Below the pieces are notes generated by a model. The model worked only from the letters and a program-made list of their open reading frames with translations, did not search any database and had not been told where the DNA came from. A stretch of 64,000 bases of DNA from Cenococcum geophilum 1.58 (Eukaryota; Ascomycota; Dothideomycetes; Gloniales; Gloniaceae). The stretch covers positions 4,078,536-4,142,535 of the forward strand of contig KV748178.1 of assembly GCA_001692895.1 (NCBI GenBank), in the 5' to 3' direction. Below, piece after piece: positions 3,001 to 37,242 of the stretch (the first letter of the stretch is position 1; each line of letters opens with the position of its first letter). The position numbers and the translations under genes are program-made.

Positions 3001-6000
3001 TTTTAGAACAAAGAGGATTAGTACGCCTACTAGCGACTTACTAAGCTAGATCTACCCCTTTTCTAGTAACCTATTAAGGTATTCTCGTAAAATCTTAAGC
3101 TCTTTATAAGAGAGGTTATAAATAGGGAGGTTTAGTAGTTATTTGCCTTCTTTTAAATTAATTATATAATTATATTCCGAGTTTTATAGCAGGACTTTAG
3201 CTTATCTGCCCTAAAATACCCTTAGTAAGCCCTTTAGGCCTAATAGAATATTTAATAAATTAGGGTCGCGTTTGTCTTTTATATTATTATTAGGTAGATC
3301 CTAGAGCTCCCTTAAAATACTTATGGGCAGTATTACGCGCTATAATAATTACTTATATATAGTTGCCACCGTATATTAAACCATTTTATATAATAGCTAG
3401 TAAAGGGTAAAGAAATCTTTAACGCATTATTTAAGGTGCTGTAGTATACTCTCTGTATATTACTTAAGCTAGAGTAACCCGTAGCGGTTAAAGTATCTTA
3501 TAAGATCTTTAAGATTGCCGCCTCCCTATAATGTCTCCGTAACCTATCTAGTAGTTCCTTAAAAGGTTTCTATTATAGAGGGATTATTACCTATACTAAG
3601 CTTTATACCTATTTTATTATAAAATAGGGGTTAGATCTAATACTCCTTTAGGTATAAAGCGTATACTATTTCGCCTAAAGCTATATCCTTTAGAATATCC
3701 TTTAAGCTTATTAGTAATATACGCCCTTCTAATTCTTTATTGTTCTACTATTTAAAGGCTCCTATTTTAAAGTATATTTTAAGATCTACTTTTATAGGCT
3801 AAGGGTATTTAAGGATAAAGTTATAACCTACAAAGTTAGCCACCTAAAAGGGTTATAGGCCGACTACCTTAATGCGGTTATATATATTGGCTACTAATAC
3901 TATAAGCTTATAGGCACTATATAGTTTAATCTAATGCTTATCTAGGAAGCCTATAATGGATTTCCACTACCTTAATAATAGGATAAGTTTATACTCTTTT
4001 ACTAAATTATATTATATAAGATTAATTTTAGCGCCGCTATTATATAGTACTTAGAACTATTATACCTCACTTATAGAAAGTACTATTTTTAGCTTAATAG
4101 CAATATAGAGAGTCTCTTATTCCGTATTTTACCTTAGTTATAGCTAGAAGAGGTCCGCAACTAGGGCTTTTCTTTGTTTAGATTATTAGTACGGTTATTA
4201 CCCTGTTTATTTTTCTAATAAAATATACTTTTAGAGTTTTCTCTTAACTTTTTAAAGTGTTTCTATAAAGATGCTAAATAGGTATTAAGCTAGCCCTAAG
4301 AGTTTTTCCTATTACTTAAGGCCTCTAACTTTAACTCTTTTAAAGTTCTTTTTAAAAACAGCTTCTTTAAAGGTTAGGTCTACCCTATATTACTATTAAA
4401 GTGCCTACGCTTTTAGTAACCCCTTAGCTTCCTACTAAAAGAGGTCTAGTTTCTTACTATATCTTTAGCATTTAAAACTGCTCGTTTAAAATCCGTATAT
4501 ATAGTAATCCGCAATAGGGCTCCTACGCGCTTTATTTTATTATAAATTACTAGCTTAATTCTAGCCTAGATAAACTTAATCTTCTCCTTTTTACAGATAC
4601 CACCGCCCCTATTCTCAAAGGGTTTTAAATCTATCTATTAAGTATAAGTTTTTATAAAGTTTATAAACTAGTAAAAGTTAGCAATTAAGCTATATCCTAT
4701 TCTACAATAGCTTTATATTATTATATTAGACAATATATAGATCTTAAGTCCATTTCTTTAAAAAGGTTTGCAGCTATAGCTATATAGTAATTTACTCTTT
4801 ATTAAGCTAATTAAGTACAATTTAGTTTAGTAATTAGTCTTTAATCTTACTAATAATCTAGTATATACGCTCTTTGGTATTATTTTATATTATTAGCATT
4901 TTAAAGAAGTTATTTACCTTATAAACCCAATTATCTAGCTGCTAGGCGTTAGGTCTATAGCGGAGTTCTAAACTACTAAAGGCCTTAGCTAGTTAGTCTA
5001 TATTCTTTTTCCGTTTATAGCATAAATAACTTTTTAAGTCTTTTATACCTTCTTAAGTAGGTATTAGGTAGCCCCTAGAAAGCCCTTAGCCTTAACTAGG
5101 TTATAAAAGAATTTACTTAGCTTAGATTAACCCTTACTAGATATAGATTTGCCCTTAAAGGGTTCTAATATATTTATTAGTAGCTTTCTCCCGTATAGAT
5201 TTTAAGAGCCTTATAATAGCTTCCCAATATCTATCTTAAAGGAGATTGGTATAGGGCTCTTAACCTTCTAAACTTAGGCCTAGGGAAGCTCCTACTATAA
5301 AGGTAATATTAGCACTAGTAGCTAATACGGGTTTCCTAATAAGCCTTAGGTCTTAAGTTAGTATTTAGGTTTAGTTTTCTAAAGGAGTAGGCCTACTTAG
5401 CTTATAAGTAGTCTATATACCGCTACTATACTAATTATAGGCCGGTGGTCTTCCGAGAGGGTTTTAGTTGGGTCCCTAGTTAAACGCGTTAGTATATTCC
5501 TCTAGTATTTCTAGCTTAGGGGAAGATCTTAAAGTTACCTTTAGCGCTTAATCTTTTAATTAGCCTAGGTAGGACTAGAGGGGTTTTAGTTACTTTTTAG
5601 TAGCGTTATAACCGTTATAAAGGGTGTCTACGTTTTCCTTAGTGGTAACTATAGGTATATAAGAGTCTTTAAGCTCCTAGCGCATCTAAGTATTAGGGCT
5701 TATTCGGCCGTCTTGCCTAGAGGTTTATATTGTTGTAATCTCTTACTATTAAAGGGACCTTTCTGCCTTAGCGCGATGGCTTTCCATAAGGTATTTATAG
5801 AGTTTCTATTTAGGTCGTCGCGAGATTTTAAAAGAGGATAGTAGTTATAAATAAAAGATATAAATAAATAATCTGGTCCTTAAGCCAACTACCCTTCTAA
5901 AAAGGAGTAGGAAGGATTTAAATATAAGGGGCTATAAGGCACAATTATAAAATAGGATAGATTAGTAAGAGAGACGAATCCTTAAGGAGGTAAGGCCTTT

Positions 6001-6112
6001 AGGATTATAGAGACTATATACTACGGGTATATACGTCTAGTACGTAACCAGTAACCATCGGAGGGGCATCCAGGGGTTGTCCTAAGGGCAACCCAAGGTG
6101 TCTGTAATAATA
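1..6112 (-). mobile_element. Ty3/gypsy LTR retrotransposon relic 1
   Basis: Minus-strand remnant of a Ty3/gypsy element, seen from its right (5') end to a 3' end beyond the window edge. The order read on the minus strand is gag-like (about 5800-4400), protease region (about 4100-3600), reverse transcriptase (about 3300-2300, with a recognisable block related to the family motif YLDDILIYS near 2650-2700), RNase H (about 2300-1700) and integrase (about 1600-500). The right end carries LTR-like sequence (about 5880-6112), whose outer end on the minus strand resembles TGTTACAGACACC; its inner edge is not certain. The element is thoroughly broken, with dozens of stops across all domains, and has the TA-rich signature of RIP. 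It is old or was heavily mutated soon after insertion. Confidence 0.8.
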
Positions 6113-6474
6113 TCCCTTATAATGTATATATATTAATTAGGGGGGTATATATACATTAATTGGGGGGTATACGTGTATTATTTAGGGGGTGTATAATTAT
6201 CGCTAACCTTAATTAATAACTAAATTAATCTATATTTTCTGCAAAGCCTTCTTAGTAACTTAAATAAGTTTAAATATAATATTTAAAATAAATAGGTTAA
6301 GTTATAGTACTATTTTAAAAAAAAAATTAAAAGTTTTAATTATAGTATAGTCTACTTTAAAGTAGTAAATAATGGCTTTTATTTAATAAATAGTATAATA
6401 GTAATCTAAGCTTTAGTAATAATTTTAGTAATAGATATTAAATTATAAAGAGTATTGAAATTGGTAATTTTAAT
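6113..6474. other. Intergenic spacer with short tandem repeat
   Basis: AT-rich spacer between the gypsy relic and the 3' end of the Argonaute gene. About 6128-6205 holds three imperfect copies of a roughly 24-bp unit of the form TATTAATTAGGGGGGTATAT. The rest probably contains the Argonaute 3' untranslated region. No gene is seen. Confidence 0.5.
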
Positions 6475-9400
6475 CTAAATATAAAACATAGTATCTCTTA
6501 GTCTTTGATGCACACGCACATCGTCATTGGTGGCCTGGGCTCCTCCATGGGTACTGCCCGCCACCGATGCCGCCATCGAATGTGTTGGCGTATCAAAGAG
6601 ACTGCTCAAATAATGCCTCGCCCTCTCGCACACCATGTCCGCATACTTCGCAGGTGGACATATACTGACCGCCTTTGTGGCGCGCCCGAACGCATAGCTC
6701 ATGGCATGCGTCAGGTCCTCCAGCACGTCTGCAACATTATGAAATGGCTGGGGAATTGTCTTGTAGCGCTGCTGAAAGATTTCGTCGAGCAAGACGTAAT
6801 AGTGCGCAGGACGCGCAGTGCCTTGGAGTGCGGCGTGCGGCTGGAGGAAGAAGTCCCAGTTGTGTGCCTCTGTGACACTACGGTCAACAATAGTCCCAGG
6901 CTTAGGATTCGAAAATCTGTCCGCCGTCTGGACCGTAATTGGGTAGAAGCGTGTGTGGTGGCGCTTGCCGACGATAATGATGGTGAGTCTCGGGAGGCCG
7001 TTCTTCTGGTCTGCGGGGGGATACTTTTCCTTGCATGCTTGCCTGAGTTGCGGCAGTTCTTCGTTAATTACTTTTCCGTACTGGCCTTCGGAAACACCAT
7101 CACGGTAGACCAGAATGTTCTCTGGGAATGATAGATGCCTGCCCTTGGTTTTCCAAAGGTCCAGGTGATGCTTCAGCATCTCCGCCAAGTTATCGACCTC
7201 TTCTTTGCGAGCTCTTGACTGAATGCGGATTGTCGCAGGCCATTGGCCAAGCAGTTTGTCAATACTGGCAACCATGCCTGCCACACTTGGAGCATTGGCA
7301 CTGGATCCCGGCGACGGGTGGGTAACATCAATACCAACAACCATAGTTTTGTCTTCATTGATGATGCTGAGACGGAGATTATCGACGATTTGATTGGTTC
7401 CCCCTAATTTTAGATTGAACTTAAGAGCCAGGTTTTTGAGATATTGGTCTTGGCCCTTCTCCTTAGCGAGTTTCTCGCCGACGCTGCATATAGTCTGAAT
7501 TCCATATTTGACGTCGGCTAGTTGTTTTATTCGAGGGTAGAGTGGGTCGTTGGCTTTTGGTAAGATGATGAATAGAAGATCAAGACTCCCAGCAGCCAAC
7601 TTGAGGCTATTCTCTACTACTGGGTCATCTATTTCATTCACAACTATCCTTCTGCCTTTGGCGGGCTTGTCTGCCAATACCCCAGTTGCTTCCAAAGACC
7701 TGTGAAGTTCGTCTACCACTGCAACCAAACTTGGTTCATTCGGAAATGCATCCCGGGAATTGGGTGTTGAGATAAGCAAGAAGGACCATTTCTTCAGTTT
7801 CACGCCCGTAGCATTAAATTTAACTTTGAGCATGTTCCAGGATCCAGACTGTACTACAGCAGTGCTGTTACCTCTATAGACAACCTTGGGTTCGTTAAGG
7901 ACGCGACCCTGGACTGTGATTAACTTTTGTGGCACTGATATGCCAAAACTTCCCTGGTTGAAGTTAGCTATGCACCTAATAACCATCAAGAAACCTACCA
8001 AGAGTATATTCCCCTGCGGAGACAGGCCAGCAGTTTGGAAGCCTTGGTCAACTATCGAATTGGCGTTCTCCCAAGGCCTGCGTACAGCAAACCGTATCAT
8101 ATGTTGCGTTTGGTTCGGGTCAAGCTGCCCATTATATGCCTGCCCAGGCACAACCACGCATACTTCAGCTGGTAGATAGCTGGGATTCTCCTTCGTTCCG
8201 ACATTGATCACAGGAATGGCCGGATTTGTAATGGGTATGCCATGTGCTGTTCACAAAGTCATTATGCTGACCTGATACTCTAAAGACATACTTACTGGTC
8301 CTAAAAAATTCAAACACGCTGATATATTTATCAGAAGGTGCAGGTCCAGTAAGGGGGCCCGGTTTTTGCCCTTTTTTCTTTCCCCCAGCTTTGCTGGCCG
8401 CTGTTGCTGCCGGAGACGATTGAGGTTGACCGTCAAGCCAAAACTCCACATCTTTTGGACCTGCGCCGTTTTCTCTGACACGCGGTGGATGTTGTAAACC
8501 ATGGCCATCGTCTCTGGTAGCAAGGCCGTGGATAGTTTTCAATCTGATAATAGTCTGGCCAGCTTTGTTCTTCTTTTCAGCCAAGTGAGTGGTCTTGATT
8601 TTGAGCTTCTTTAGGAACTTGTTCAATTTGAATTTGTTGGGGCCATTGGCGTGTTCATATTTCTGGATCAGCTGATCCAACCTGTCAGTGTCGTAGAAAG
8701 CGCCATGGCTGACATTGACATTCACCAGGATGCGGCAGGTAGCGAGTCTGACACTAGAGAAGAAACCTCGAATCGCAGTTAAGCCGGCACCTAGGCCCAA
8801 CTTTTCCGAATTAGGACCAAGCGAAAAAGTCTTGCTCGCTCCAATCGTGGCAAGGTTTCCAGTGGACTTGGAATAATGGTTCAAGAAGATGTTGAAAGCC
8901 TGAATTATAGGGAGCTTCTCGTCGTAGTTTTTGCCAAGTTGTGTAGATGTCAAATAATTAATGAGGTCTGATACGGGCAATGTATTCGTATACTGGATAC
9001 GAACATGGTATTTAGTGGCACCCTGCCGCGGATCGTCCTCATTTTCGGACCGGTACTGGAACTCAACTACCATCTCGTCCTTCTGCAACTTCTGCCGCGA
9101 TATAAGGGTTGATTTAAAATCGGTGACTATATCAGACTGGATTGGAGTCATTTCAGGGGACTCTAGAAATAGCCTGATAATTTGGCCAAGTTTCCTTCCG
9201 GAAGCCTCGGGAGATACGGAGATGTCATATCGGAAAAGGATGAGTTTCGGGTCAGGCACCATTTCCACGTAATTAGCCCATAGCGTGACGGGCATGCCTC
9301 TTGTACCATACCCGGGGCGATGGGCAAACATAGAGTCAAGCTGTAGTTTCTGAAGACTAAGAGGGTCTTTCGCCGCCTTTTGGACAGCATCTTCAATGTT

Positions 9401-9726
9401 TACGACCCGCGCATCAAGAATAGGTGCTTCGTTTGGAGTCCTGGGCCTGCAGTAGTTAGTTGAGCAGCTGCGGCGTGGGTATGAGCAGAGAATGCCAACA
9501 AGTATACTTGGACTGCCGCACCACCTCGCCCTCCCATGGCGCCTCCGCCGCGTCCACCACGAAACCCCCCTCGAGCGCCTCCTGTGAAGCCTCCTCGTTC
9601 CCCGCCCGGAGCTCTTCCTCGGCCGCCTTCCCGATCGCCAAACCCATGATCTCTTCCGCGTCCTCGCGAGTCTCCTTGGCCTCTTTCTCCTCGGCCTCTG
9701 CCCCCTCGACCACTTTGGTTGGACAT
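6475..9726 (-). CDS. Argonaute (fungal QDE-2/AGO-like), slicer type
   Basis: Small-RNA-guided Argonaute, the effector of RNA silencing (quelling or a related pathway). Three exons, 9726-9500, 9446-8296 and 8246-6475, total 3,150 nt and encode 1,049 residues. Residues 1-75 form an RGG/arginine-glycine-rich tail starting MSNQSGRGG. The N and linker domains follow. The PAZ domain spans roughly residues 310-480, and its end matches the family pattern NPSYLPAEVC across intron 2. MID and PIWI complete the protein, which ends in the canonical MFYI. All four catalytic positions are present: D766 in GIDVTHP, E808, D842 in VYRDG and H941 in PAHYYV, so it is predicted to cleave. Intron 2 (8247-8295) is canonical (GTAAGT...CAG). 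Intron 1 (9447-9499) has a good branch site and acceptor, but the only donor that keeps frame is GTTGGC, so that edge is less sure. An upstream in-frame ATG at 9816 exists, but the RGG start fits the family better. The gene shows no RIP although repeats lie on both sides. Confidence 0.93.
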
Positions 9727-10571
9727 AATTCTATGAAGAAATACAAATTGGTGGAGAAAGAGATTGTGGGAATTATGGGAGCACACTGCATAAATGTCAT
9801 TTCGGTTGCGGGGCATCTGTGCGTAAGTTTTGCGTCAGATCAGCGTAATTGGTCCGGGTACCAACCTAAATAGAGGCTAGTCTTCATACCGAAAAGAAAT
9901 ATAATTTTTCTTTTAAGGTTTTAAATATATTTACAGTATTTCATAGCTATTATTAAAGCATCTGCTTAATCATTTATACTATAAATAACTAACCCAATAC
10001 GGTAACGTTGTTTTAACTGCTTGACTTTTTCGTTCCCCCACTCATTGCGTGCTCCATTATTCAATACCTAAACCTAGTCACCGCCTTAACAAATAGCGTT
10101 ATATCCATCAAGTCTTCTTCCCGGTTGGCTCAGCCACATTGTCCGAACTCGCTGTTACAGTCTGACAAAGCTTCAGCATCTATGAACCCTGCGCCCGACC
10201 ATAGGTCCCGTGTACCTTCTGGGTCGGAATTAATAACCAAAGCCCTATATTAGAATAGCGCCCATAACAAATTTGGCATAATTTATGTTCTTCACATTAA
10301 TGCTTAGTAAGGCAGAATCAGCAGAATATTCAATTCAAACCAGAAACGACGCTGACGTAATGTTGACTGGACAATACCAGGTGAGGAACTCGTGTCTCGA
10401 TTGATCTATGAAGGAAAAACGACTAGCTGCAGGCAACAGGAACGGGGTCGTAGGCAACAGGAACAGGTAGGTAACACACAACGTTGACAGTTATGTTAGC
10501 TACAGCCTTTGTTATGTGCTTTTGCGGACGATTACGGCGTAAAGGCCTAAGATGAGCACAACGATTCTGTC
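9727..10571. other. Argonaute upstream region / intergenic
   Basis: Sequence of ordinary base composition (less so at 9890-10010, which is AT-rich) between Argonaute and the CHAT relic. It should contain the Argonaute promoter and 5' UTR. A 13-bp direct repeat (AGGCAACAGGAAC) occurs twice near 10430-10466. No convincing gene, RNA or repeat boundary is seen. Confidence 0.4.
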
Positions 10572-10787
10572 CTAATAGTCAATATGGACGAATGACGCCC
10601 ATTGCAGAACCACCCCGGGCCTCCGTGCTCGGACTTCAGGAACAGTGTTATGCAAGGCTGATGCCACAGGCCATTTGTCGTCTTTTTGTAAGCGAAATAG
10701 CTTGGCAGCAATCTCCAAGCAAAGCTCGTTCTTGTGCGGCCAAAGGCTTGCAACCACGTGTCTAAATCCAGCCAACTGAAATTCAGA
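10572..10787 (-). pseudogene. CHAT-domain protein, C-terminal fragment (split gene)
   Basis: Last segment of a host gene for a CHAT-domain protein (caspase-like fold, usually at the end of a TPR-repeat protein in fungi). The minus-strand frame contains LAGFRHVVASLWP, then LHNTVPEVRARRPG and VLQWASFVHIDY before a TAG stop at 10572-10574; this is the typical CHAT C-terminus. The frame runs straight into the target-site duplication of the 10-kb transposon at 10780-10787 and continues without a break on the other side, at 20877-20950. With one copy of the duplication the codons read ...LHIASEF-QLAGF.... The fragment is not RIPed. It no longer has a promoter or N-terminus here, so it is a relic; a read-through transcript is possible but not supported. 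Confidence 0.78.
10780..10787. repeat. 8-bp target-site duplication (left copy)
   Basis: AATTCAGA immediately left of the 10-kb element. The identical octamer lies at 20869-20876 immediately right of it. An exact 8-bp duplication bordering matching inverted termini shows transposase-mediated insertion. Confidence 0.9.
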
Positions 10788-10820
10788 TTATCTCAGTTGA
10801 CTCATACCCTCGGAGAGAAA
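10788..10820 (+). repeat. Left terminal inverted repeat of 10-kb transposon
   Basis: The outer 17 bp matches the inverted right end (20852-20868) at 15 positions. The following CTCGGAGAG block has its counterpart at 20837-20846. Confidence 0.8.
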
Positions 10821-10844
10821 ATCCACCTCACCTCCTGCAAACTC

Positions 10845-10925
10845 CTGAGCCAATCAGCGGCTGGCACCGCCACACCTCTATAACCCCTGTGACTCCTATA
10901 AACTCCTAAGCCAATTAGCGACCGC
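10845..10925 (+). repeat. Least-mutated subterminal repeats (CCAAT-containing)
   Basis: Two copies of an approximately 20-bp motif, consensus AACTCCTGAGCCAATCAGCG, carrying a CCAAT core. It is the first of the repeat families that recur through this transposon (12060-12160, 14670-15260, 16955-17160) in this orientation and in the opposite orientation near the right end. The subterminal position suggests transposase binding sites, but that is inference. Confidence 0.65.
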
Positions 10926-12478
10926 CGCCACAGCCTAATGTACGCCACGGGCGTTAGCGCTTGCGCTAGCTTCAGCAGCCAATTATAGAGCGCCGAGGTA
11001 GATTCCTCTCCGAGGGTCTAAGAGATTATAGGCGCCTTTTGTAAGGGCTGTACAGCCTCGCTAGTAGAAGACAGTTCTATTGCCTTTAACGTTATATTTC
11101 GCCCCCTAATATAGCGCTACTTAGCTCGCCAATACCTCTATTTAAAAGCTTATCTTTTACTCTATATATTATATCCGTAATAGAGCCTAATTATGCCCCT
11201 AATGGGCGTCTATTTAAGCGGAACACTTAAAGTCCTCTCTTTAGCTAACCTACTCTTTCCAGCCCGCTAGAATAGCTTATTAATATATCTAAGGGTTCCT
11301 CTAATAGCGACAACTAGATAGATAATAATAGCTAACCTAATACTAGCGAGCCTAAACCTCCCTTATTAAACCGAAGTATATAACAGTAGAGGCGCGCGAG
11401 GAAGTTATAAGCCGTGGTTAATACCCTAAAACAAAAGGGTTAGAGCTTTATATAATTCCTATCTGCCTAGGTTAGAGCAAATAATGCAGATAATAGGGGG
11501 GTTATAATTAGGCACCGTTGGTATAATTGCGTTAAAAGACGATAACAAGCATTATTAAATGCAGTTGTAAAAAATCCGCAACTTAGCTATATTTAAGGGG
11601 CAGTTATACTAGTAGGGTCTTTTACTATAGAGCTAGACCGTCTTATTTAGGAGCTATACTTTAATATATTTAACAGGACGTTAAATATAGAGGACTTAGA
11701 CTTTAAAGTCGCCTTCTATACTATACGAGATATTGCCCTAATATAGCATATAACTTTACTATAGCTACTTGGTAACTAGCGCGCCTATAGAGTAAGTTAT
11801 TAGGCGGGAGGTTAGAAGGCGAAGGGTTAGGACGCTTTAGTTAGGCGGGTATATGCTATTACTAGTATAATCTATTCTTCTAGAGCAAAGAAGCAGTTTA
11901 ATTTCTTTACTTTACTTATAGATATCTATCTTATAGGCTCTAGGGTAAAAAGGAGGGTGTTTAAAACGCTATCCGGCTTTAGGCTATATTATAGCTATTA
12001 TTTAGTAAATCGCATTATAAATAGTATTGCTAAGAAGGTAGAGATATATTAACTATCTTATATCTATCTCCTGCGAACTCCTAGGCTAATTAGAAGAGCT
12101 CCTATAAACTTCTATAAGCTCCTATAAACTTCTATAAACTTTTAAGCTAATTAAAAGAGCTTTTATGGACTCCTTTAGGGGCTAATATTTATAGAGGCAT
12201 CTTAGAACCCTAGCGTATAACCCATAAACAGTGGTTATATATAATAATGTGAACTTTAAGGACACAAAATGTAATAAATTGCTTAGTTATACGTCTGTTA
12301 TGCGTTCGCTAATAACTACTACCATTATATTCTATCCGGAATTACCTTTATCTAGGCTACGCTAATTAATATATAATCTAACAAAACCGCTATAACTTAA
12401 TAATATCTTCCGGTTACCTAGCTTTATTAGAGACGAGTTAATAGTAAAGGTTAGCTATTACCTTATCGCCAATGTAAT

Positions 12479-12486
12479 AAAGGGGG
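12479..12486. repeat. 8-bp target-site duplication of nested hAT derivative
   Basis: AAAGGGGG left of the 609-bp element; the same octamer lies at 13096-13103 on its right. The eight base pairs are the hallmark of hAT insertion. Confidence 0.88.
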
Positions 12487-13095
12487 TAGGGGTGGATTTG
12501 CGGACGTCCGAATTAATTTCGGTCAGGTTTTAGATAGTCACTAGCGTCTTTTAAAATCCTAGGCCTCTAATTAGTGTAACCTTAATTTAAGTTATTATGT
12601 TAGCGTGCAAATCTACTTACACGGCCCCCACTAAAACTAAATTATTATCTTCTTGACGATTTAAAGCTCTATTACCACTAATATGTCTACTAAACGTAGT
12701 AGAAATAAGGATTTTAATATCGCAGTTGCCTTCTAGAAGTTTAGAAAGGAAGGCGCGAAGACTAAGCGAGCCTAATGCACCCATTGCGGCTACAAACAAT
12801 CGTAGAAAACTAATATGCTGTATACTTACCTATCTAGCTGCAAAAAATATAAAGCCTTACTATTTATAAAGGATTTAGCTAAACTACAGCTAAAATAAAG
12901 TTAGAATAAAATCCTATAATCGCCTAACGTCATGCATTGTAATATTATCTCTAAAATCTCTTATATAAAACCCGGAGAATTGTTAAAATCTAGGCCTTTA
13001 AAATATAGAGGATCTGGCTTAGAATTTCGGTCAGGATCCGGACCTTCCAAATCCGGTTAGATCAGGATTTACATTTTAGACGGATCGCACCCCTA
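12487..13095 (+). mobile_element. Nested non-autonomous hAT element (609 bp)
   Basis: A short hAT-superfamily derivative inserted inside the coding part of the 10-kb transposon. The ends are TAGGGGTG on the left and CACCCCTA on the right, a perfect 8-bp inverted terminus of hAT type, flanked by the 8-bp duplication AAAGGGGG. It keeps the start of a transposase with a BED zinc finger but has no catalytic domain, so it would need transposase from a full-length relative. Its coding remnant is less degraded than the surrounding transposon. Confidence 0.85.
12683..13020 (+). pseudogene. BED zinc-finger N-terminus of a hAT transposase
   Basis: The frame begins MSTKRSRNKDFN at 12683. It runs through a BED-finger pattern: CTHCGY (the C-x2-C pair), then YTYLSSCKKYKAL (position of the second metal-binding pair). 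BED fingers sit at the N-terminus of many hAT transposases and bind the element's subterminal DNA. The frame has a few in-frame stops at positions expected for Gln or Trp, and it ends where the element ends, with no RNase H-like core. It could act only as a DNA-binding fragment, and the stops argue against even that. Confidence 0.7.
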
Positions 13096-14669
13096 AAAGG
13101 GGGTTTATCTATATAGGGTAAAGCGCGTCTTTACTAAAAGTGATTTTTTCCCTTAGATGCTAAGTATACACTATATTAATACTAAAAAGACTAAGTTTTA
13201 GTAGTTTAGTGCTATAATAGAAGATAAGGGTACTATCTAGGGTATATACGGCATCTATAAGAATATTTTCCTTAATTAGCTTGGACTTTAGGCTCTGGAT
13301 AACCCCTATAGCTCTAGCTTGCCTATGGTAACCAGCTTACTACGTATTATATTAGGTTAGTAAAATAGAAATAGGCCTACGCGGGTTATCCTTTTAACCG
13401 TTAGGACTAGCTCCTTAGTATACCTTCGTGGTTCTATATTAAGATAAACCTATACAACACTATTATATATACGCATTTAGCGCCTAAGGACTATTAAGAG
13501 GAGGCGCACTATTATCTAAGATCCGACGTTACTTTATAGAATTATATACCATTTACACGGGAGAACGCTAAGTACTATTAAGTGGTACCGATTATTAAGT
13601 AGGGCTTTATAGCGCGCGTAACAGCCCTCTTCTATACAGCTATATAGCGCTAGGGTCTCCTTACTATAATACCTAAACTATCTAACCTATTTAATCCGTT
13701 ATCGTCGGAACGTATAGAGAATGTTACTTAGGCAATCGGTTACCTTATACTAGAGCAGTTCCTAAAAATAGTTAAGGATATTTAGTTTACTGCTTTTACT
13801 ATTAAAGTATAGAGCGGCGTAGACTTAAGTGGGCGCTTATATGGTAATATTAAGTTTCGGATAATATATCGCCTGCTTTAAAAAGCTAAGCTACTTCTTA
13901 CTATTCGGTATACCATTAAATATACCAATATAGGTATACTATAACGGCTTATTAACCCCCTTATTGTCTACTTCTTTAGCGCGTCACAGTATAATTATAG
14001 CCGCGAGATACTGTTCTATTGGTGGAATCTTACTTTAGTAAATTCGCCTAAACTTTAGTATGTAATACTAGCTTTAGGGGTTATAAACTGGCTTAGGTCT
14101 CCTAATACGCATAAGGCTATTAATCTTAGATTAAAGCACCTAAACGGTAGCTATAAAATTAAGATAAAGTGTTATAAGAACTCTACCTATAATACTAATA
14201 TCATATTCAATTAAGTATGTCTATTAAACGCGATAGTTAGGATAGTGCGTGGCAAGATAGAGCATATATTTAGTGAGAAGATATTAGGTGCTTATACGCG
14301 GGCTTTTACAGAACTTAATATATTCCTGCTTACTTATATAATCTATTTAAGTAATCTAGCTATACCGCGAGGCCCCAAGTAGCTGGTAGGCTTACAGCTA
14401 TTTAACTCCTATAATATTCTCCGTACTAGTATAGACGTTTTAGTAGAGAGGATTAAGCAGTTTAACTAGCTCTATATACGGGACCCGCATTTAGCTACTA
14501 CTTTCTATTCTCTTCTAGATACTAATAACCTAACTAGCTTTACGGATATATAAGAGTTTACCAATATTATTAGCGATAGGTTAAATAAGGTAGATCTTAC
14601 CTTTAACTAAAATATAGGCTAGGAGCTAGACGTCTCTCAAGCTCCTTACCTAGATATTGCCTAAACTGC

Positions 14670-15260
14670 TATAAACTCCTAGGCCAATTAGAGCGCGCGT
14701 TAAACCCCTTACTACCGTCGTTCCCTAGGGTCTCCTAATAAACTATTATAAACTCCTAGGCCAATTAAAACGCGCGCTAAGTTTTCTACTATCGCTATTA
14801 TTCCCTAAGGTCTCCTAGTAAACTACTACAAACTCCTAAGCTAATTAAAACGCGCGCTAAGTTCCCTACTGTTATTATTATTCCCTAAGGTCTCCTAGTA
14901 AACTACTACAAACTTCTAGGCTAATTAGAACGCGCGCTAAGTTCTCTACTATTGTTATTATTCCCTAAGGTCTCTTAGTAAACTGCTATAAACTCCTAGG
15001 CCAATTAGAACGCGCGCTAAGTTCCCTACTATTATTATTATTCCCTAAGGTCTTCTAGCAAACTACTGCAAACTCCTAGGCCAATTAGAATACGCGCTAA
15101 GTTCCCTACTATTATTATTATTTTTTAAAATCTTTTAGCAAACTGCTGTAAACTCCTAGGCTAATTAGAATGCGTGCTAAGTTCCCTACTATTGTTATTA
15201 TTTCCTAAGGTCTCCTAGCAAACTGCTATAAACTCCTAAACTAATTAGAGCGCGTGCTAG
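14670..15260 (+). repeat. 80-bp tandem array (about 8 units) in 10-kb transposon
   Basis: About eight tandem units of exactly 80 bp. Each starts AACTCCTAGGCCAATTAGAA and continues with a CGCGCGCTAAGTTCCCTACT segment, a short ATT-rich stretch and CCCTAAGGTCTCCTAG. Units differ mainly by C-to-T or G-to-A changes. The array follows the DUF6589-like frame and carries the element's CCAAT-type motif once per unit. Confidence 0.85.
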
Positions 15261-15353
15261 GCTATAAGCTTATATACTTTAAGGGGGCAGGAATAGTTAT
15301 AGCACGTTTAAGCGGTAGAATAAAAATAACCTCTATTTTAATACTACTACTCT

Positions 15354-15528
15354 AGAGCAGAGGCCCGCTATACTTGCTCTCTCTATCTACCTATACCAGA
15401 GCAAAGGCCTACCATGCTTACTTTCTCTATCTATCCATACTAGAGCAGAGGCCCGCTATACTTACTCTCTCTATCTATTTATACTAGAGCAGAGGCCCGC
15501 TATACTTACTCTCTTTATCTATTTATAC
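15354..15528 (+). repeat. 44-bp tandem repeat, four copies
   Basis: Four adjacent units of about 44 bp of the form AGAGCAGAGGCCCGCTATAC followed by TTACTCTCTCTATCTATTTA, inside the 10-kb transposon. They are distinct from the 80-bp array just before them. Confidence 0.85.
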
Positions 15529-16210
15529 TAAATACCCCTCTAACTTAAACCTAGATAGAAAGTAGAATAAGGGCTTTTATAACGCCTTACAGTTGCCTAT
15601 AAAGGATAACTTATAGTTAGGCCCACCTAGAATACTGGCTTCTTTACCTATATAGGATCTAAACTAACTAGAATAAGGTTAAAGCTTACCCATAAAGAGA
15701 TACTAGTCTTTACTATAGCCGTTAATCCTATACTATACCTTTTTACGCTATTATACCCAAACCCCTAGCTCCCGGAGGAGGCGGCAGCGGCCCCTTTAAA
15801 AGAAGAAACTAAGGGAGAAGAGGCGGCGACCGTAAGCCTCTTTAGAACTTACGCCGCTTTAATAAACTATACCTACTGGAGTGGGCTACTATATAATAGC
15901 GAGTATAGGCGTTATCGGGCCTACTTACCTACTAGGAACCCTTTCTAGAGTAGGCCCAGTACTCCTTGTCCCTTACTTAGCAAGCTAAGTACTAATCCTC
16001 TTCTATAAGCTACTTACCTAGCTCTATCTCTATAATCCTCTTAATATAAAAGGTGTTTTTAGCACCTACTAACGCCAAGAGGTCCGACTACTATTTGCCC
16101 GCAACCGTAGGCATATAGTTAGTAGTAGCCTTCCTATAGATAGCCTAGTTCTATAGGAGCCGCTATTAGTCCGCTTATTAGGCGGCCACAAAGCCAGCCT
16201 AAGTAAGGGG
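15529..16210 (+). other. Coding-like stretch of unknown identity in 10-kb transposon
   Basis: A plus-strand frame can be followed in pieces here, with relatively GC-rich patches such as an alanine-rich block near 15785-15800. I do not recognise a domain. It may be a third, small gene of the transposon or the degraded end of another. Confidence 0.3.
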
Positions 16211-16212
16211 TA

Positions 16213-16345
16213 GCGGCGGGGCCGCGAGCGGCAGTGGCGGTGGTAGTAGTGGCGGTAGTGGTAGTGGCAGTAGTAGAGGAGGTGGTGGTGGTGGTAGTAG
16301 TAGAGGAGAAGGAGGTAGTGGTAATAGTAATAGTAATGGTAATCT
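16213..16345 (+). repeat. GGT/AGT trinucleotide microsatellite
   Basis: Purine- and G-rich trinucleotide tract, mostly GGTAGT and GGTGGT units decaying to AATAGT at its right end. A second triplet tract (GTTATTATT type) lies at about 16421-16458. Confidence 0.85.
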
Positions 16346-17299
16346 ATATACTATATTAGCTAATGTTTAAAATATAAGGCATTACAAAATATACAGTAGA
16401 TTAGGCCACTAGCCAATACCGTTATTATTATTATCGTTATTATTGTTATTGTTATCATCCTCCCTACTAGGAGGCAGTATAGAAGGGGGATAGGGGATAG
16501 GGACGGGGATAGGGACGAGGATAGGGGGAGTGCGAGCGCGGTAAGGGCGAGGAGGAGGGCTATAGAATTAGTTAGCAAACGGCCTTTCTAAGTAGGGAAG
16601 TAGTTGGAAGCTTAGGTTAATTTACTAAAGCTTTAATTAACTACTTAGCATAGGAAAATACTTATAAAGGACACCGGACGCGACCTAAATATAGGGCTTC
16701 GCGATAGAGTATAAAGGCGGCGGCGAGAATAACCTCCTTATTAATTAGAAAGTTTACTAGGTACAAAAGCACCCAGGCCATAAGGGGAGTTATTATAAAT
16801 AATTTTTTAAAAAAAATATTAGTGTTAGTATTATAGAGAGAAATAAGGGGTATAGATAACTGTAAGTACTAGCTTATCTACTTTACCTTTATAAATATTC
16901 ACCGCAATCTAACACTTATTCACCTTATATTATTAATTAAGTTACTAGCATAAAACTTCTAAAGACTCCTATAAACTCCTAGACTAATTAAAATACTCCT
17001 ATAAACTTCTAGGCTAATTAGAATATATTATAATACTCTAAGTAGAGGTTACGGGTTAATAGGTAAGATTCTATATAAAATCCACTATATAAACTCCTAC
17101 TAACTCCTGCTAACTCCTACTAACTCCTACTAACTCCTACTAACTCCTAAACTAATTAGAACACGCCATTATATAAAACCCTAAGCTATCTCTATCTACG
17201 ATTCTATAAGGAAATTCTTTTTACTCCTTAGTGTCGCTTTCCTAATACGCCTAAATCTAGTTTTTGGACTAAATATAAATACTACATCTATATTTACAT
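16346..17299. other. Central spacer of 10-kb transposon with further subterminal-type repeats
   Basis: No gene is seen. 16955-17035 has three copies of the AACTCCTAGGCTAATTAGAA motif. 17092-17160 has five tandem copies of a 10-bp TAACTCCTAC unit followed by one more full motif. A long C-poor open frame on the minus strand (16360-16578) is a product of the skewed composition. Confidence 0.5.
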
Positions 17300-19840
17300 T
17301 TATATCCCTCTCCTATATAACTATCTAACGTTTAATAGGCGAGTCCCTTTAGTTACTAGCTTATCTTTTCTGGCTAGGCGTTAAAACTACCTATAACCAG
17401 GATATAACTAGAACGGCGGGCTAAGAATTAAGAATAGCTACGACTTAAGAATTAAGACCGGCTATATCCTAGGAGTTAAGAACTACGGCATCCTAAGCGT
17501 TAGGAGCAGCAATATCCTAAAAGCCTATAGTAGACGTACTATATATTATAGGCGTAGAGATCAGTCTTTAAACATCCTTAAGTACCTATACCGCGCGTTT
17601 AATACCCTCTAGTATAGCTAAAAGTAGAGTACTAGATAAAGAGCCCGGCGCGCTAAGTAGTGAAGCTAGTATATCCACTACGCTCCGTACTGCTTCCCGT
17701 ATAGCAACCTAAACGGTAAAGCTATTATCCCGTCGCCGAACGTGTGTAGTATACTCCGCTAGTATAGACGGCTGCTTTAGCAACTCGCGCACTACTAAGG
17801 CCTCGCCTTAAGTAGCTTTACCCATCTCTTCTACGCTAGATTGCTCTTATAAGTAGTCCTAACCGTTTTAACTATACTTCTTAACCGCTTAATTAACTAA
17901 TCGCTATAGGTATTATAATATCGCCATAAAATAAATAGGGAAGCCGCACTTTTTAGTAAATCCACCGTAAGTGTCTCCTAGAAGGTATTAGGTGTGGTCC
18001 TATTATATAAATACGCAAGCTGCTAGCGATATTTCTCGTCTATAAATGTAGACAATAGCATAGGGAAGTGTTAATATTTGCTAGCGTATATTAACTCTAC
18101 CTACTTAACCGCCCACTTATTAATAAACCCTAATATAATATTAGGCTAGGTACTAGCCCTTAGCTAACAAAGCAGTGCTAAAGTATTAGGGGCCGACGTA
18201 AACGTAGGAAATAATAAGGGATTGTATTAATTACAGCACTAATTAGTTAGGGCGCGAATAATATAGTTTAAAACTGCTAGTGGTAACCTATCCTCTCCTA
18301 GGAAGGTAAGGAAGGCCTTTTAATAGCATTTACCGTTTACTATTTCCTTCTATTTAGTTAATATCTTCTTACAACTAGCTATCTTAGCCTTTAACCAAAA
18401 TAGAAGGTTGCTATTAGCTATAGAATTGTAACTTATAGCTAATTTCTCCGAGGCGATACTCTCTATATTACTAATATTGCTAGGCGTATAACTCTAGATA
18501 AGTTAACTCCGTCTATATCTAGCAGGTAGGCTATTACGTCCTCTTTAAGGCGCTTAAGTGGGCCGCGGCTTTATATATAGTGGTAGTGGCTTCCATCCTA
18601 GCCTATTTACTCCCTTTATATTAAACGCCTAGTATAGTAAGAAGATAAAGCCTATACTAGTATAATTCTTCTTTTACCCGCTTTAACTAATCCGCTACTA
18701 TATATTGCCCAGGCTCTTTATAATTAGAAACCCCTAAACAATTACGCGCTTAATATTAGCGACATTTACGCCTATACTAAGGGAGGTTATAGCTATTATA
18801 ATTTAGATAATAGAAGAAGGCTTCTTAAACTCTATATACCGTTAGTTGCAATTATACTCCTATATAGTAGCGGTAAACTTCTAGATTACGCTACTAATAT
18901 AAAAGGCCTCGCTATTATTATTGGCCCCTTTTATATACGCCTTAGACTTTTAGAGCAGCATATTCTAGAGGTACTCTACTATATTCTAAATAGAAATTCG
19001 GCCATTAATAAAGACTATTATCTTTAGTATACGTATAGGTGTAGGTATTCTGTTACCGTCCATATAGTTATCTAATAGAAAATATAGGTTTTCCTATGGG
19101 TTTACCTTTCGCCTAGAAATTGGCTATATATATATAGATATGTCCAGATAATTAATAAATATTCTTATAACCTCGGTCTAGTATAAACGAACGCTAGCTA
19201 CTTAGAATCTAGCGCGTAATAGGACTAATCTCTCTGCCTTCTTATTAAATATTGCAGAATAGGTAAACTAGATAATACTTAGACGGAGGATTATCTACAG
19301 CTCGCCTAGTATTAAGTAGGCTAGTTAGAAGCTTTCCTAATCCTTTACCAGATAATATTTATTAATTATAACTAGCCTAATCCGAGACTATAGCTCTAGC
19401 CCCTTTAAGGCGTCCTAGAACGACTTTGTCGACGCCTACTTAGGTCTAAGAAGTATATACATATACACCCCTTCTTAAATCTTTATAATTAGATCCTTCT
19501 CCTAACTTTTTATTTTAGCGTTAATAAGAACCGGATTAGACCTATTTATCTTCTTAATATTATCTAACTACTCGTCGCTAAGCTTGTTTAATGGTATTAT
19601 CTAAATAGTAATCTTACCGGTAAGGATAAAATATATATAGAAGATTAGACTTTTACTAAAGCCTATACGGGCAATAAGAAGAGTGTCGCCTTTTCTAAAT
19701 ATAAGCTAACGTAGAGTGCGCACCTGCTTATTACGCGGCTTAAAGTCTTTAAGCTATAGATAGGTTTAAAGAATAATTCGCTAAAGGTAAAGGCTAATAA
19801 CCTTATACTAGAATGGTACATTCTCTATATACCCTACCTA
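17300..19840 (-). pseudogene. RecQ-like DEAD-box helicase of the 10-kb transposon (RIPed)
   Basis: Minus-strand superfamily 2 helicase frame, readable in order despite many RIP-type stops. A Q-motif-like block lies near 19735-19760. Walker A (TLLIARIGFSKSL, family GxGKS) is at 19645-19683. A degraded DE-H box (INKYYLVKD) is near 19340-19370. The motif IV-V region GVNVANIKRVIV is at 18735-18780, and a motif VI block, QRISQSG-like (family QxxGRxGR), is near 18668-18710. A C-terminal region of several hundred residues with a CC-x-x-C-like cluster follows, down to about 17300. The organisation is that of fungal RecQ-like helicases. It points towards the DUF6589-like frame, so the element has two convergent genes. 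The role in transposition is unknown; a helicase acting on excised or replicating element DNA is inference. Confidence 0.68.
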
Positions 19841-20044
19841 TTAGATAACTAATAGTAATTGCTTTACGCTTAAACTCCAAATTAATTATAGAGTCTCTAA
19901 GATAGGACTATAATTAGCTGACGGTTGTAGTATAGGCGACTCCACTACCCTACCCTAAGATCTATGCCATTAACCCTAACGGTTAGCGCCCTTCTTCTTC
20001 TTCTTTTTTAGTTTAGATTCGTATCTTAGTATCTATCTAGCTTA

Positions 20045-20275
20045 GCCTAGAAGCTTATATAAGCTTATCTAATTAGCCTAAAAGTTTATAGAAGTTTGTA
20101 AAAGCTCTTCTAATAGCCTAGAAGCTTATAGGAATTTATAAAAGCTCTTCTAGTTAGCCTAGGGGTTTATAAAAGTTTATAAAAGCTCTTCTAATTAGCC
20201 TAGAAGTTTGTAAAAGTTTATAAAAGCTTTTTTAATTAGCCTAAGAGTTTACAGAAGCTTGTAAGAATTCCTAAA
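20045..20275 (-). repeat. Inverted family of subterminal repeats, right arm
   Basis: Five to six imperfect copies of AATTAGCCTAGAAGTTTRTA, the reverse complement of the left-arm motif, spaced about 35-45 bp apart. Two better-preserved copies lie at 20727-20782. The whole repeat family therefore points outward-to-inward symmetrically on the two arms. Confidence 0.7.
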
Positions 20276-20836
20276 AGAGTATACCCGACTAATAACACGC
20301 CACGAATGTTATATAGGTATATTATAATTAGGTAAGCTATTTATAATAGGGTATAAAAGGCACCTTATAAAGTTTAATAGTAAATAAAGTTGTGGTAGTA
20401 GAGTACGGTCGCTATATTAATAAGGCTGGTTAGGTATAACCGGGTTTAAAAACGCGTCTTTAAACTTTAACGCTGTACTTCGCCCCCTAATATATTAATT
20501 AGCTAGTTAAATTTACTAGAATATACTAATAGAGGATATTATAATTTAATTGTATTTGGAACTATAGCTATAGCCGCTATATTAACCCCGTTGCAGTTAC
20601 TTAAAGTTAGTATATATTAAGAATCGCGCCCGGTTTATACTAAATACACGCCTATAATCTCTTAAACGCTTTATAGAGGAATTTTAGGGTTGTAGGGGGG
20701 CTAAGGGGTAGCGCGACGTTCTATTGGCTTAGGAGTTCGTAGGAGTTAGTGCGCGCCGCTAATTGGCTCAGGAGTTCGCACGAGTTGGCAGAGTGGGGCT
20801 GTGGTGGGAGAGTGGGGCCATGTAACGCCATAAATT
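20276..20836. other. Right subterminal region of 10-kb transposon
   Basis: No gene is seen. RIP decreases towards the right end: 20690-20868 has near-normal GC content and holds two CCAAT-type repeats in inverted orientation. Confidence 0.5.
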
Positions 20837-20868
20837 CCTCGGAGAAGCGGCTGAGGCACCTGAGATAA
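20837..20868 (-). repeat. Right terminal inverted repeat of 10-kb transposon
   Basis: Inverted copy of the left end. The outer bases read TTATCTCAGGTGCCTCA on the minus strand, followed by CTTCTCCGAGG. Confidence 0.8.
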
Positions 20869-20876
20869 AATTCAGA
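20869..20876. repeat. 8-bp target-site duplication (right copy)
   Basis: AATTCAGA, identical to 10780-10787. Confidence 0.9.
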
Positions 20877-20950
20877 AGCGATGTGGAGGCTCTTGTCCGC
20901 TAAGGTAGCAACCTTTATATTGGCTATAGAGCAAGCTGATATGTAGGCTA
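20877..20950 (-). pseudogene. CHAT-domain gene, middle fragment with catalytic Cys motif
   Basis: Short segment of the same CHAT gene, between the 10-kb transposon and a MITE. On the minus strand it reads LAYISACSIANIKVATL (the first codon spans the TA at the MITE junction) and ends LHIASE before the transposon. SAC is the conserved block around the catalytic cysteine of CHAT peptidases. The fragment is in frame with both neighbours once the two insertions and their duplications are subtracted. It is not RIPed. Confidence 0.78.
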
Positions 20951-21238
20951 CAGCTTGTACGAGCTTCGGTTTCTCTCCTCCCCCCGTATGCGCGCAACAT
21001 ATACACCTAATTTCGCTAACAACTAGTTAAGTGCACTATCCAGCGTAGACACTGTGCACTTGTAAAAAAGGCTGTGCACTTATAGGCAATGTATGTGCAC
21101 TTACAAGAAAGGTAAAGTCTCTCATTTTTAAGCTTAATTGTAAGAGTTAAACTTGAAATTCTCTAGTGTGCAAGAAAGCGAAATTAGGTATGTTGCGCGC
21201 ATACGGGGGGGGAGAAACCGAAGCTCGTATAAGCTGTA
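20949..21238. mobile_element. 286-bp MITE with long inverted repeats and TA duplication
   Basis: The element proper is 20951-21236, flanked by TA at 20949-20950 and 21237-21238. The ends are CAGCTTGTACGAGCTTCGGT on the left and the near-identical inverted CAGCTTATACGAGCTTCGGT on the right. The inverted arms extend about 63 bp and include a run of C (left) or G (right). The central 150 bp holds three copies of GTGCACTT with short spacers. CAG termini and TA duplication fit a pogo/Tc1-mariner type MITE. There is no coding capacity and little RIP. It lies inside the CHAT gene. Confidence 0.88.
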
Positions 21239-21318
21239 AGTCTGCTTTCGGGCTTCGATGAGTGAGGAGATAGCTTATAGATGTCGACCTGGTGTCGATC
21301 ACTACTATATTTGGTTAG
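21239..21318 (-). pseudogene. CHAT-domain gene, upstream fragment
   Basis: Continuation of the CHAT frame beyond the MITE. The minus strand reads SYLLTHRSPKAD, directly in frame with LAYISAC across the MITE junction. The catalytic histidine block expected further upstream is not found; the next DNA is the pogo-like transposon. The left edge is approximate. Confidence 0.55.
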
Positions 21319-21330
21319 ATTAGGGGTGCT

Positions 21331-23410
21331 TATAACTTACCTGCTTTATGTAAGTTACAAGAACGGTATAGCGCGAGCTCTTGTGGTGTTGGAAACCCTA
21401 TTTTTAGAGCTGCGCCCGATGGGAGGTTAATTGCCCCGGAGGATCAGGAACAACCATTCTTTAATAGAATTGCTTAATTCTTAATGGAGGTTAACTGTAT
21501 ACATCTGCTTTATTAATCTATAGTTTAACCAACTAGTAAATGTATATCTATAGATTATTATAGGGGTGGTTTAAATCCCATCTCCACCAGGCGTAATTTA
21601 GCGCTATGTATTGACCCCCTACTCTTAAGCCTACAAACTAGCACCGCTGCCATTAATATTTATTAATTTAATACCCCTCTTGCCCTATACAATGGTGAAG
21701 TCTAAGGACCTTAAGCGCCTTCGCCGCCATGGTGTTTTAGAGCGTGAGAGGCAGCAGATCTGGGTATACTGCCGTAAAACCCCTAGAAAACCTTAGAGAG
21801 ACACTATACGCTTTTTTACCGATTAATTTTAACGCCCTATTTAACAGTCTATTATATTAAACTCCTTAAAGCCTAAATATAAGTACCTTAATTTACTTAT
21901 ACTTTAACGCGGCTAGGAGGGCTTTAAGAGGCGTAGAGTTCCTAATAATTCTAAGCTTAAAGAAGCGCTATTTAAATGGCAACAGCGGATACAGGCTGCT
22001 AATATACTTATTACCGGCAACCTTATACGGGCTATAGCAGTAAAGCTTTAGAATACAATAGCGTGTTATTAGGGTTAATAGCCTAGCTTCTTAAGTAGTT
22101 GGGTTAATAACTTTAAGAAAAGGAATTAAATATTAAAATGGAAGCTATATAGTAAGGCTAGGTTAGTAAATATAGAAGGCGCCGAGGAGCGCATATAGGA
22201 GCTTAGGGTTATTATAGATATATATCTAAATTAAGACGTTTATAATATGGATAAGGCAAGGCTTTTCTATAAGGCTACGCCGGATATAAGACTTACAACT
22301 ATAGGGTAATTAGGCACTAAAAAGCAGAAGAAGCGTATTATAACCGTCCACTATAGCAACGTAGATAGCAGCTATATTATACCCCTGTAGATTATTAGAA
22401 GAGCGAAAAATCCTTAATATTTTAGTATATAGCGTAGCAACCTAAGGGGCTTTAACTTCGCCTAGAGGTTTAATAAGAAGGCATAGATAACGGCGTTAAT
22501 ATTCCTTAATTATATTAAGTGGTTTAACGGCTTAATAGGCGGTAGAAAGGTTCTCTTACTTATTAATTCCACTCCTGGCCATACTAGGAGTATACTTATA
22601 ATATTGAAGCACGCTAGCTTGCTTAATACTAGGGTTATATTTTTACCTAAAAACGCTACCTCTTTCTATTAGCCTTTAGATTAGGGTATAATTTAAACCT
22701 TTAAAGCCTATTACTGCCGCTACTAGCTATCCTATATAGTAGATTAGGTAGAGTAAGATAGGAACCCCCTTAAGATAATAAACGTACTTAGGGCCGTTTA
22801 ATAGGTTATCGCAGTATAGTATAAAATTAGCCCTTAAACCGTAATAAATTGCTTTATATATTTAATAATCTTTAGACCCTGTAAGGGCCCCTAGAGTACG
22901 CTAAGCGGGTATAGTAAGCCTTAGCTTAAGGCCGAATTGGAGGTATATTTATAGCGGCTTAGCTAAATAGGGCAAATCAGTTAATTATTGGCTATTAGTA
23001 ACTTTATTAATCTAAATAAGGAGGACGCTTTAATAGAGCCTAAAGCCTCCTTATTATAGGAAGCAATTAAAGCCTTAATTATACCTTTATATAATGCGCT
23101 AGATAATAAGGAAAGCGATAATAAGGTTAAGCTATAAGTTATTAAGCTTAATAAGCCTTTAAATGCACTAGAGCGCCTTAAGCTCTATAAGGGTTAGTAA
23201 GAAGAGGGTAATAAGACTCTAATTACAGCTCTTATAAAGGCAGAGAGAGCAATTTAAGGCCGTCGAGTTGCGTAAGTAAAGTAGACGACTATTACGAGCT
23301 TCTTTAAGTAGTTATAGATAGAGAGAAGAGTTGATTTAGCCCCTTGCAGCGATTAATAAGTAAACTCGCAATATAACGTTTCTATACAGCATAACGTTTA
23401 ACCCCCCTAC
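21331..23410 (+). mobile_element. pogo/Tigger-like DNA transposon
   Basis: About 2.1 kb holding one transposase frame. Possible termini flanked by TA are GGGGTGCTTATAAC on the left (TA at 21329-21330) and the loosely matching inverted GGGGGGTTAAACG on the right (near 23410). The similarity is only moderate, so the ends are tentative. A leader of about 360 bp (21331-21691) of near-normal composition precedes the start codon. The coding part is RIPed. Confidence 0.6.
21692..23250 (+). pseudogene. pogo/Tigger-type DDE transposase (RIPed)
   Basis: The frame begins MVKSKDLKRLRRHGVLERER at 21692. Typical pogo/Tigger landmarks follow in order. YNMDKARLFYKATPD, near 22240, corresponds to the first catalytic Asp block (family YNMDETGLF). 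LLINSTPGHT, near 22553, is the second Asp block (family DNAxxH). FLPKNATSFY-PLD, near 22640, matches the family pattern FLPPNTTSxxQPLD. Numerous in-frame stops, mostly TAG/TAA where Trp or Gln is expected, make it non-functional. The N-terminus should hold the CENP-B type DNA-binding domain, but that part is too altered to outline. In the intact family this protein cuts and pastes the element at TA sites. Confidence 0.8.
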
Positions 23411-28794: not shown

Positions 28795-29631
28795 TCGATT
28801 GTGCAGACGTTTATAGAGCCGTTCGTAGAGCCGTTCGTAGAGACGATTGTATGGCGATTAATTATATGGGCGTTCGTACGGCCAATTGTAGAACCTTCCT
28901 AGTATATTAGTACTGCGTGTTAGTAGAGCTCTAGAGCCCCGTATTAAGCTTTAAGTGGAGCTTTAAGTAGAACTTTGAGCTCAAGGGGGAGACCCCCTTG
29001 GACCCCACCTGCGCACTACGTGCTCTATTTACTGCGTGGGTAGAGCTCTTGCAGAGGCTTCGGTAGAGGCTTCGGTAGAGCTTTTAGGAGAGCTTTTGTA
29101 GAGCTTTGTACGGAGGTTCGTGCGGAGCTCTTATAGAGCTTGTATTTAGGCTTGTTTTTAAAGGCCTTATAAACGACTTTGTATAGAGCTTTAAGCAGAG
29201 CTTTGTATAGGCGTTCGTGCAGGCGATCGTGCAGGCGATCGTGCAGGCGTTCGTGCAGACGTTCGTGTAGGCATTCGTGTAGACGTTTGTAGAGACAACC
29301 GTAGACGTTCGTACGGACGATTGTATGGGCGATTGTAGACGTTCGTAGAGACGTTTGTGAGACTTCCTAGTATATTAGTGCTGCGTGTTAGTAGAGCTTC
29401 GGAGCTCCGTATAGGGCTTCGAGCAGAGCTTCGAGCAGAGCTTTAAGGGGGAGACCCCCTTGGACTCCCCTGCGCACTACGTGCTCTATTTTACTACGTG
29501 GCTAGTACACTGCGTGGGTAGAGGTGTTGCAAAGCCATTGGTAGAGCTTTTGGTAGAGCTTTTGTAGAGCTTTGTATAGAGCTTCGTGCAGAGCTTTTGC
29601 AGGGCTTTAGTAGAGCTTAGTGTAGAATATT
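28795..29631. repeat. GC-richer minisatellite block, duplicated
   Basis: A region made of irregular 12-nt-like units (GTTCGTGCAGACG, GTAGAGCTTTTG and relatives). It contains two related segments of about 170 bp (near 28885-29050 and 29363-29530) that share CTTCCTAGTATATTAGT and a palindrome-like AAGGGGGAGACCCCCTT followed by CTGCGCACTACGTGCTCTAT. Unlike its surroundings it is not TA-rich. It resembles the 12-bp minisatellite at 55917-56180. The origin is unknown. Confidence 0.7.
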
Positions 29632-36850: not shown

Positions 36851-37242
36851 CTTCTTAGCTTAGTATCTTTATTAAATAGTAATCTATAAGCTTTGATTTA
36901 GAGGCATTTATGCAAGCCGTTATATTATACTAAGCTCTCCCTATATTGCCTAGGAAGGCCTTAATAATATCCCACTTTATAAGCCAGATAGGACTAGATC
37001 TATACCCCTAAAATTAAAACTAAAGCGTATAATACTAACAAACCCTAAGAAGCCTATAATAGCACCTAAAGCTAGCTTATTTAAGAGAGCTATCTTTACC
37101 TAAGAGGAATCTAAGATCTAATTAGGATTAGAAATTAAAGATAAAAATAATATTATAGACGTACGCGAGCAGATTCGCGCCCTTATAGCTAGCTAGAAAG
37201 CCGATCGTCTTAAGGTAAGAAATATATAAAAGACCCTATAAG

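Follow-up and report, generated by a model that had tools for sequence, protein, structure and literature searches.

Two transposon superfamilies named in fungi are already reported to carry a RecQ helicase. In one of them, Academ, fungal copies carry PF00270 together with recQ_fam (CDD:129701), and Academ copies are often annotated as host genes (PMC6416283). AcademH has been found, in low copy number, in Basidiomycota, Ascomycota and Mucoromycota (PMC10799480), and makes target duplications of 9 or 10 bp, compared with 3 or 4 bp for AcademX (PMC10045372). The other superfamily, Kolobok, makes 4-bp duplications of TTAA; in its lineage KolobokH, which has been found only in fungi, the transposase domain is followed downstream by a RecQ helicase. 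A Kolobok element of a red alga has its RecQ helicase on the complementary strand (PMC9587614). In addition, low-GC subtelomeric RecQ gene families have been described in fungi (PMC4522978).

Here we consider a single inserted unit of about 10 kb, at positions 10788-20868 of the window, by which we mean the whole 64 kb stretch of DNA that was analysed. Like AcademH, it is a transposon of fungi including Ascomycota, encodes a helicase of RecQ/DEAD type and has a long target duplication, although that duplication measures 8 (or 9) bp as against the reported 9 or 10. With KolobokH it shares being a fungal transposon that carries a RecQ helicase. With the subtelomeric genes it shares a RecQ-like helicase that is low in GC and surrounded by repeat-rich DNA; however, those genes are telomere-linked, whereas the helicase considered here sits between transposon ends and a target duplication. 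We think it likely that the element is a RIP-destroyed, AcademH-like (Academ superfamily) cut-and-paste transposon lying in a CHAT gene, with a DUF6589 protein as its transposase. The element would then probably be a degraded member of a kind that is already known.

Element bounds and the interrupted CHAT gene

The following features define the element and its insertion site.

10560-10787, minus strand: disrupted host gene, C-terminal part of the CHAT domain (PF12770, E 2.2e-5)
10780-10787, no strand: left target site duplication AATTCAGA (in the 9-bp reading AAATTCAGA, 10779-10787)
10788-10804, plus strand: left terminal inverted repeat TTATCTCAGTTGACTCA, 15/17 match with the right end
20852-20868, minus strand: right terminal inverted repeat TTATCTCAGGTGCCTCA (reverse-complemented, ending at 20868)
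20869-20876, no strand: right target site duplication AATTCAGA
20869-20950, minus strand: disrupted host gene, preceding CHAT stretch (joining the flanks extends the PF12770 match to profile position 192)

An initial annotation had described a single element with matching inverted ends and an exact 8-bp duplication, whose subtraction restores a reading frame, and all of this is borne out. The two ends agree at 15 of 17 bases, falling to 28 of 60 when the outermost 60 bases are compared. The octamer AATTCAGA occurs twice on the plus strand of the window, at 10780 and 20869, and its complement once, at 7494. Note that a 9-bp duplication is also possible, because AAATTCAGA is found on the plus strand of the window at 10779 and 20868 only and, at the right end, cleavage may have taken place one base to the left. 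This reading assigns the terminal A at that end to the target, so that the element ends become uneven by one base; the empty site is identical under the 8-bp and the 9-bp readings.

Ends and octamer alone were rejected as proof of an element. When we searched for end pairs with at most 2 mismatches in 17, an exact 8-bp repeat and a spacing of 300-20000, one or more pairs as good as the one reported here turned up in 15 of 200 shuffled windows; the real window holds four, the other three of which lie inside longer inverted repeats. A looser count, of exact 9-bp ends with 8-bp repeats, gave 75 in 60 shuffles versus 4 in the real window. Imagine, then, that the bounds had arisen by chance and that two unrelated decayed genes merely happened to lie between a random inverted pair. 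The shuffles provide pairs of the quality that this scenario needs, but the CHAT match runs on across the joint, and the subterminal repeats described below are inverted between the two ends. We give the scenario next to no credence, and it is the host CHAT gene rejoined across the joint, rather than the statistics of the ends, that lifts the element above chance.

The evidence from the host gene is as follows. By itself, the left flank matches PF12770 over profile positions 217-287 (24.5 bits, cut-off 24), and the right flank by itself gives no CHAT match in a profile search. Once the element and one copy of the octamer are removed, the flanks form one open frame, and the joined flanks match PF12770 as one stretch over positions 192-287 with 33.7 bits (E 3.5e-8). 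Further upstream, the three minus frames of 21237-22138 contain no more CHAT sequence. The element looks to have inserted within an apparent fungal CHAT-domain gene. Apparently in the same gene, and 74 bp from the duplication of the 10-kb element, lies a short hairpin-like repeat of 286 bp (20951-21236), which is flanked by TA dinucleotides, has long inverted arms that are 87% alike (20949-21017 versus 21177-21238) and resembles a TA-target MITE.

With the element masked, neither a second copy of it (blastn, E<=1e-3) nor relatives of its two read-through frames (tblastn, E<=1) were detected elsewhere in the window; the unmasked window served as positive control for the second-copy search and returned the element.

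The DUF6589 and RecQ-like frames

Inside the element, two decayed frames can be followed by reading through stops. The coordinates are those of the read-through and of the profile matches, not of the genes themselves.

11302-14703, plus strand: decayed frame read through stops (111 stops in 1134 codons)
about 13312-14271, plus strand: match to PF20231, DUF6589 (E 8.9e-20, 71.2 bits, profile positions 106-401 of 410)
17001-19903, minus strand: decayed frame read through stops (84 stops in 967 codons)
about 19774-19358, minus strand: RecQ family match (TIGR00614 recQ_fam, E 1.7e-7)

The two frames are convergent, as first described, with DUF6589 on the plus and the RecQ-like sequence on the minus strand of one element. 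In the interval between them (15201-17302), a search of six frames found no third gene, the only hit being a chance-level one to SSP160 (E 0.47).

The DUF6589-like nature of the plus-strand frame is confirmed by profile search: with X placed at stops, one of the three plus frames matches PF20231 at a score well above the curated cut-off of 27 bits. DUF6589 is also the sole Pfam family to reach E<=1 in the three plus frames of 11300-14703, where no Pfam transposase model (e.g. KDZ, hAT, MULE) gave a match, keeping in mind that decay may hide weak ones. The plus frame matched no PDB sequence at E<=10, and an AlphaFold2 model of the decayed DUF6589 stretch, from a single sequence, reached a mean pLDDT of 32.6 and a pTM of 0.19. 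Scans with the DUF6589 stretch (13102-14649, 516 aa) gave 8 pattern matches in viral contigs and 74 in prokaryote contigs, none of which was confirmed, and tblastn at E<=1 returned nothing from plasmids and phages; these negatives are weak since the protein is decayed and the scans were seeded with exact peptide patterns taken from it. PF20231 had no match in 14 control genomes, which does not imply its absence. GDQxT and PGxxH-like motifs, which may be common to DUF6589 or Academ proteins, are perhaps represented here by GNQLT and IPSWFYIK, a lead rather than evidence. The DUF6589 protein is a fair transposase candidate, and to this extent we agree with the initial annotation. Its further proposal, of a new class of transposase, is not the simplest reading, because RecQ-carrying transposons with terminal inverted repeats (Academ/AcademH and KolobokH) have already been named in fungi.

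For the minus-strand frame, the annotation had proposed a RecQ-like helicase with its motifs in order. Membership of the RecQ family stands: TIGR00614 recQ_fam, presumably the same model as CDD:129701, the domain named for fungal Academ copies, is the best of three families listed, all of them RecQ, even if its 30.4 bits lie below the curated cut-off of 219.8, the match being decayed and partial. Among PDB chains, the frame matches WRN from E 2.9e-5 and RECQ5 from E 4e-4, and every one of the 22 sequences at E<=0.005 (32 are listed at E<=10) is WRN or RECQ5. The Pfam DEAD profile, in contrast, stays below threshold in the minus frame (E 0.073, 13.2 versus 26 bits). The motifs fare less well. 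The RecQ-like match spans motifs 0 to about III, yet Walker A and DE-H are not literally there: the place of the former reads IGFSKSL and that of the latter NKYY. Each of the replacements involved (D to N, E to K, H to Y) corresponds to a C-to-T or G-to-A change of the kind that RIP makes, and such changes could explain the altered motifs. Motif V is visible by eye only, its stretch scoring -1.2 bits, and motif VI receives no support from the sequence search of the minus-strand frame.

Subterminal repeats and RIP-like decay

A number of short repeats are distributed along the element.

10829-10920, plus strand: left subterminal repeats (AACTCCTAGGCCAATTAG-like at 10840 and 10901)
14662-15259, no strand: 80-bp tandem array of 7.5 copies, containing 8 of the 20 copies of the 18-nt motif
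15352-15530, no strand: 44-bp tandem array of 4.1 copies
20048-20264, no strand: 41-bp tandem array of 5.3 copies, containing 4 motif copies in the opposite direction
20720-20787, minus strand: right subterminal repeats, in the opposite orientation to those on the left

When up to 4 mismatches are allowed, the 18-nt motif AACTCCTAGGCCAATTAG matches the window at 22 places, 20 of which fall inside the element; fifty shuffles of the element gave a mean of 0.14 matches and a maximum of 1. The copies point inward from either end: fourteen, between 10840 and 17142, have the plus orientation, and six, between 20069 and 20759, the minus orientation. Note that 12 of the 20 copies are not independent, because they are located in two of the tandem arrays. 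Inward-facing motifs at both ends are what one would expect of subterminal repeats bound by a transposase, and AACTCCTAGGCCAATTAG is a putative binding site of this kind. Its copies also link the half that holds DUF6589 with the half that holds RecQ, as parts of a single unit.

Both frames are so full of stops that this copy must be dead. The composite RIP-like index (the indices are used in their generally known definitions) ranges from 0.94 to 1.83 across 11001-20000, as against -0.14 to -0.68 in 7001-11000, and TpA/ApT ratios of 1.51 to 2.24 across 11001-20000 agree with RIP. This composition is not specific to the element: AT-richness and RIP-like dinucleotides characterise most of the window, apart from two ordinary stretches at about 7-11 kb and 53-55 kb, and the right boundary of the element shows no sharp change. 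The outermost hundred bases at each end appear less altered, in 100-base steps that are noisy. RIP would account for the damage to the element and, as RIP acts on repeated DNA, the element was probably present in multiple copies in its genome.

The start of the element, 10788, is at the same time the edge of the ordinary-composition stretch that holds an Argonaute gene (6475-9730, minus strand). In that gene ArgoN (E 2.2e-21), ArgoL1, ArgoL2 and Piwi (E 8e-72) score above cut-off and PAZ just below, so that a gene of RNA silencing adjoins a repeat-rich, RIP-like stretch. Taken together, Argonaute, DUF6589 and the RIP-like composition would point to a filamentous ascomycete as host. The second low-RIP stretch contains a methyltransferase-like frame (53945-54706, minus strand; Methyltransf_23, E 1.2e-9). 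The window holds other repeats as well. An inverted repeat of about 255 bp (39228-39482 and 48491-48744, 91% alike, 9.0 kb apart), at whose edges a limited scan found no target duplication, encloses decayed RVT_1 (E 7e-14) and RT_RNaseH (E 2.2e-8) sequence. A direct repeat of about 219 bp with 20-nt tandem units lies at 37238-37456 and 43338-43556 (92% alike), and related tandem arrays of 12-nt units (e.g. AGAGCTTCGTGC) at 28801-29626 and 55926-56183.

Identity of the element and its implications

What kind of transposon is this? AcademH is the nearest known kind, given the RecQ helicase of fungal Academ copies, the occurrence of AcademH in Ascomycota, and the failure of the insertion site to show the TTAA of Kolobok. 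Several points speak against an AcademH-like element. Taken at face value the duplication has 8 bp, and reading it as 9 requires the uneven ends discussed above; neither the PDB sequence search, nor the poorly scoring AlphaFold2 model, nor the scans of viral, prokaryote, plasmid and phage collections provided a link between DUF6589 and Academ or any DDE fold; and the dependence among 12 of the 20 motif copies and the spread of RIP-like composition over most of the window, both noted above, weaken the case further. As for KolobokH itself, a transposon found only in fungi and encoding a RecQ helicase fits in outline, and the red algal Kolobok shows that the helicase can lie on the complementary strand, as it does here. 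However, KolobokH's own helicase is placed downstream of the transposase domain, and the element is flanked by AATTCAGA instead of the Kolobok tetranucleotide. An assignment to KolobokH is, for this last reason, very doubtful.

A different kind of alternative takes DUF6589 as the transposase of its own, unnamed superfamily, which would make 8-bp duplications, have an array of subterminal motifs and owe its RecQ helicase to an acquisition separate from those of Academ and Kolobok. An 8-bp duplication taken at face value, next to the 9 or 10 bp reported for AcademH, favours this idea, as do the entry of DUF6589 in Pfam as a family of unknown function and the outcome of a search of the open-licence PMC literature, which found no relevant paper on DUF6589 or PF20231. 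In this respect the initial claim that no named family pairs DUF6589 with a helicase is half right: a DUF6589 link was not found in print, whereas RecQ-carrying Academ/AcademH and KolobokH elements do have names. But with two named superfamilies already carrying RecQ in fungi, a third carrier becomes less likely, a known superfamily hidden under an uninformative Pfam name is in our view the likelier case, and the duplication may be one of 9 bp; we regard a separate superfamily as unlikely. It could also be that DUF6589 is the sole working transposon gene and that the RecQ frame is a passenger, a captured or nested telomere-linked host helicase, for which the subtelomeric RecQ families described in fungi would supply a source. 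This we find quite improbable, because AACTCCTAGGCCAATTAG copies flank the helicase match (19358-19774) on both sides (16974-17142 and 20069-20759), RIP-like indices are similar throughout the element, and no second set of ends surrounds the helicase, at least at up to 2 mismatches in 17 with an exact 8-bp repeat.

Returning to the AcademH-like transposon that we favour, its mobility might be pictured as follows. As a transposase of the DDE type, the DUF6589 protein would bind to the inverted ends and to the subterminal AACTCCTAGGCCAATTAG array, excise the element and join it to a staggered target cut, the repair of which would leave a duplication of 8-9 bp. The product of the opposite strand, the RecQ-like helicase, would take part by helping to open the ends, or by processing or repairing the donor or target site.

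The new lead is a small one, given that RecQ-carrying fungal transposons are already known, and consists in the suggestion that DUF6589 may be a transposase. Should it not be the transposase of AcademH, a further superfamily would carry a RecQ helicase, and if it does belong to a superfamily of its own, fungal genes annotated as DUF6589 would be unrecognised transposons. If, on the other hand, AcademH does use DUF6589 as its transposase, a role would be assigned to a Pfam family that has had none, and some of the fungal genes now labelled DUF6589 or stray RecQ helicase may turn out to be parts of transposons.
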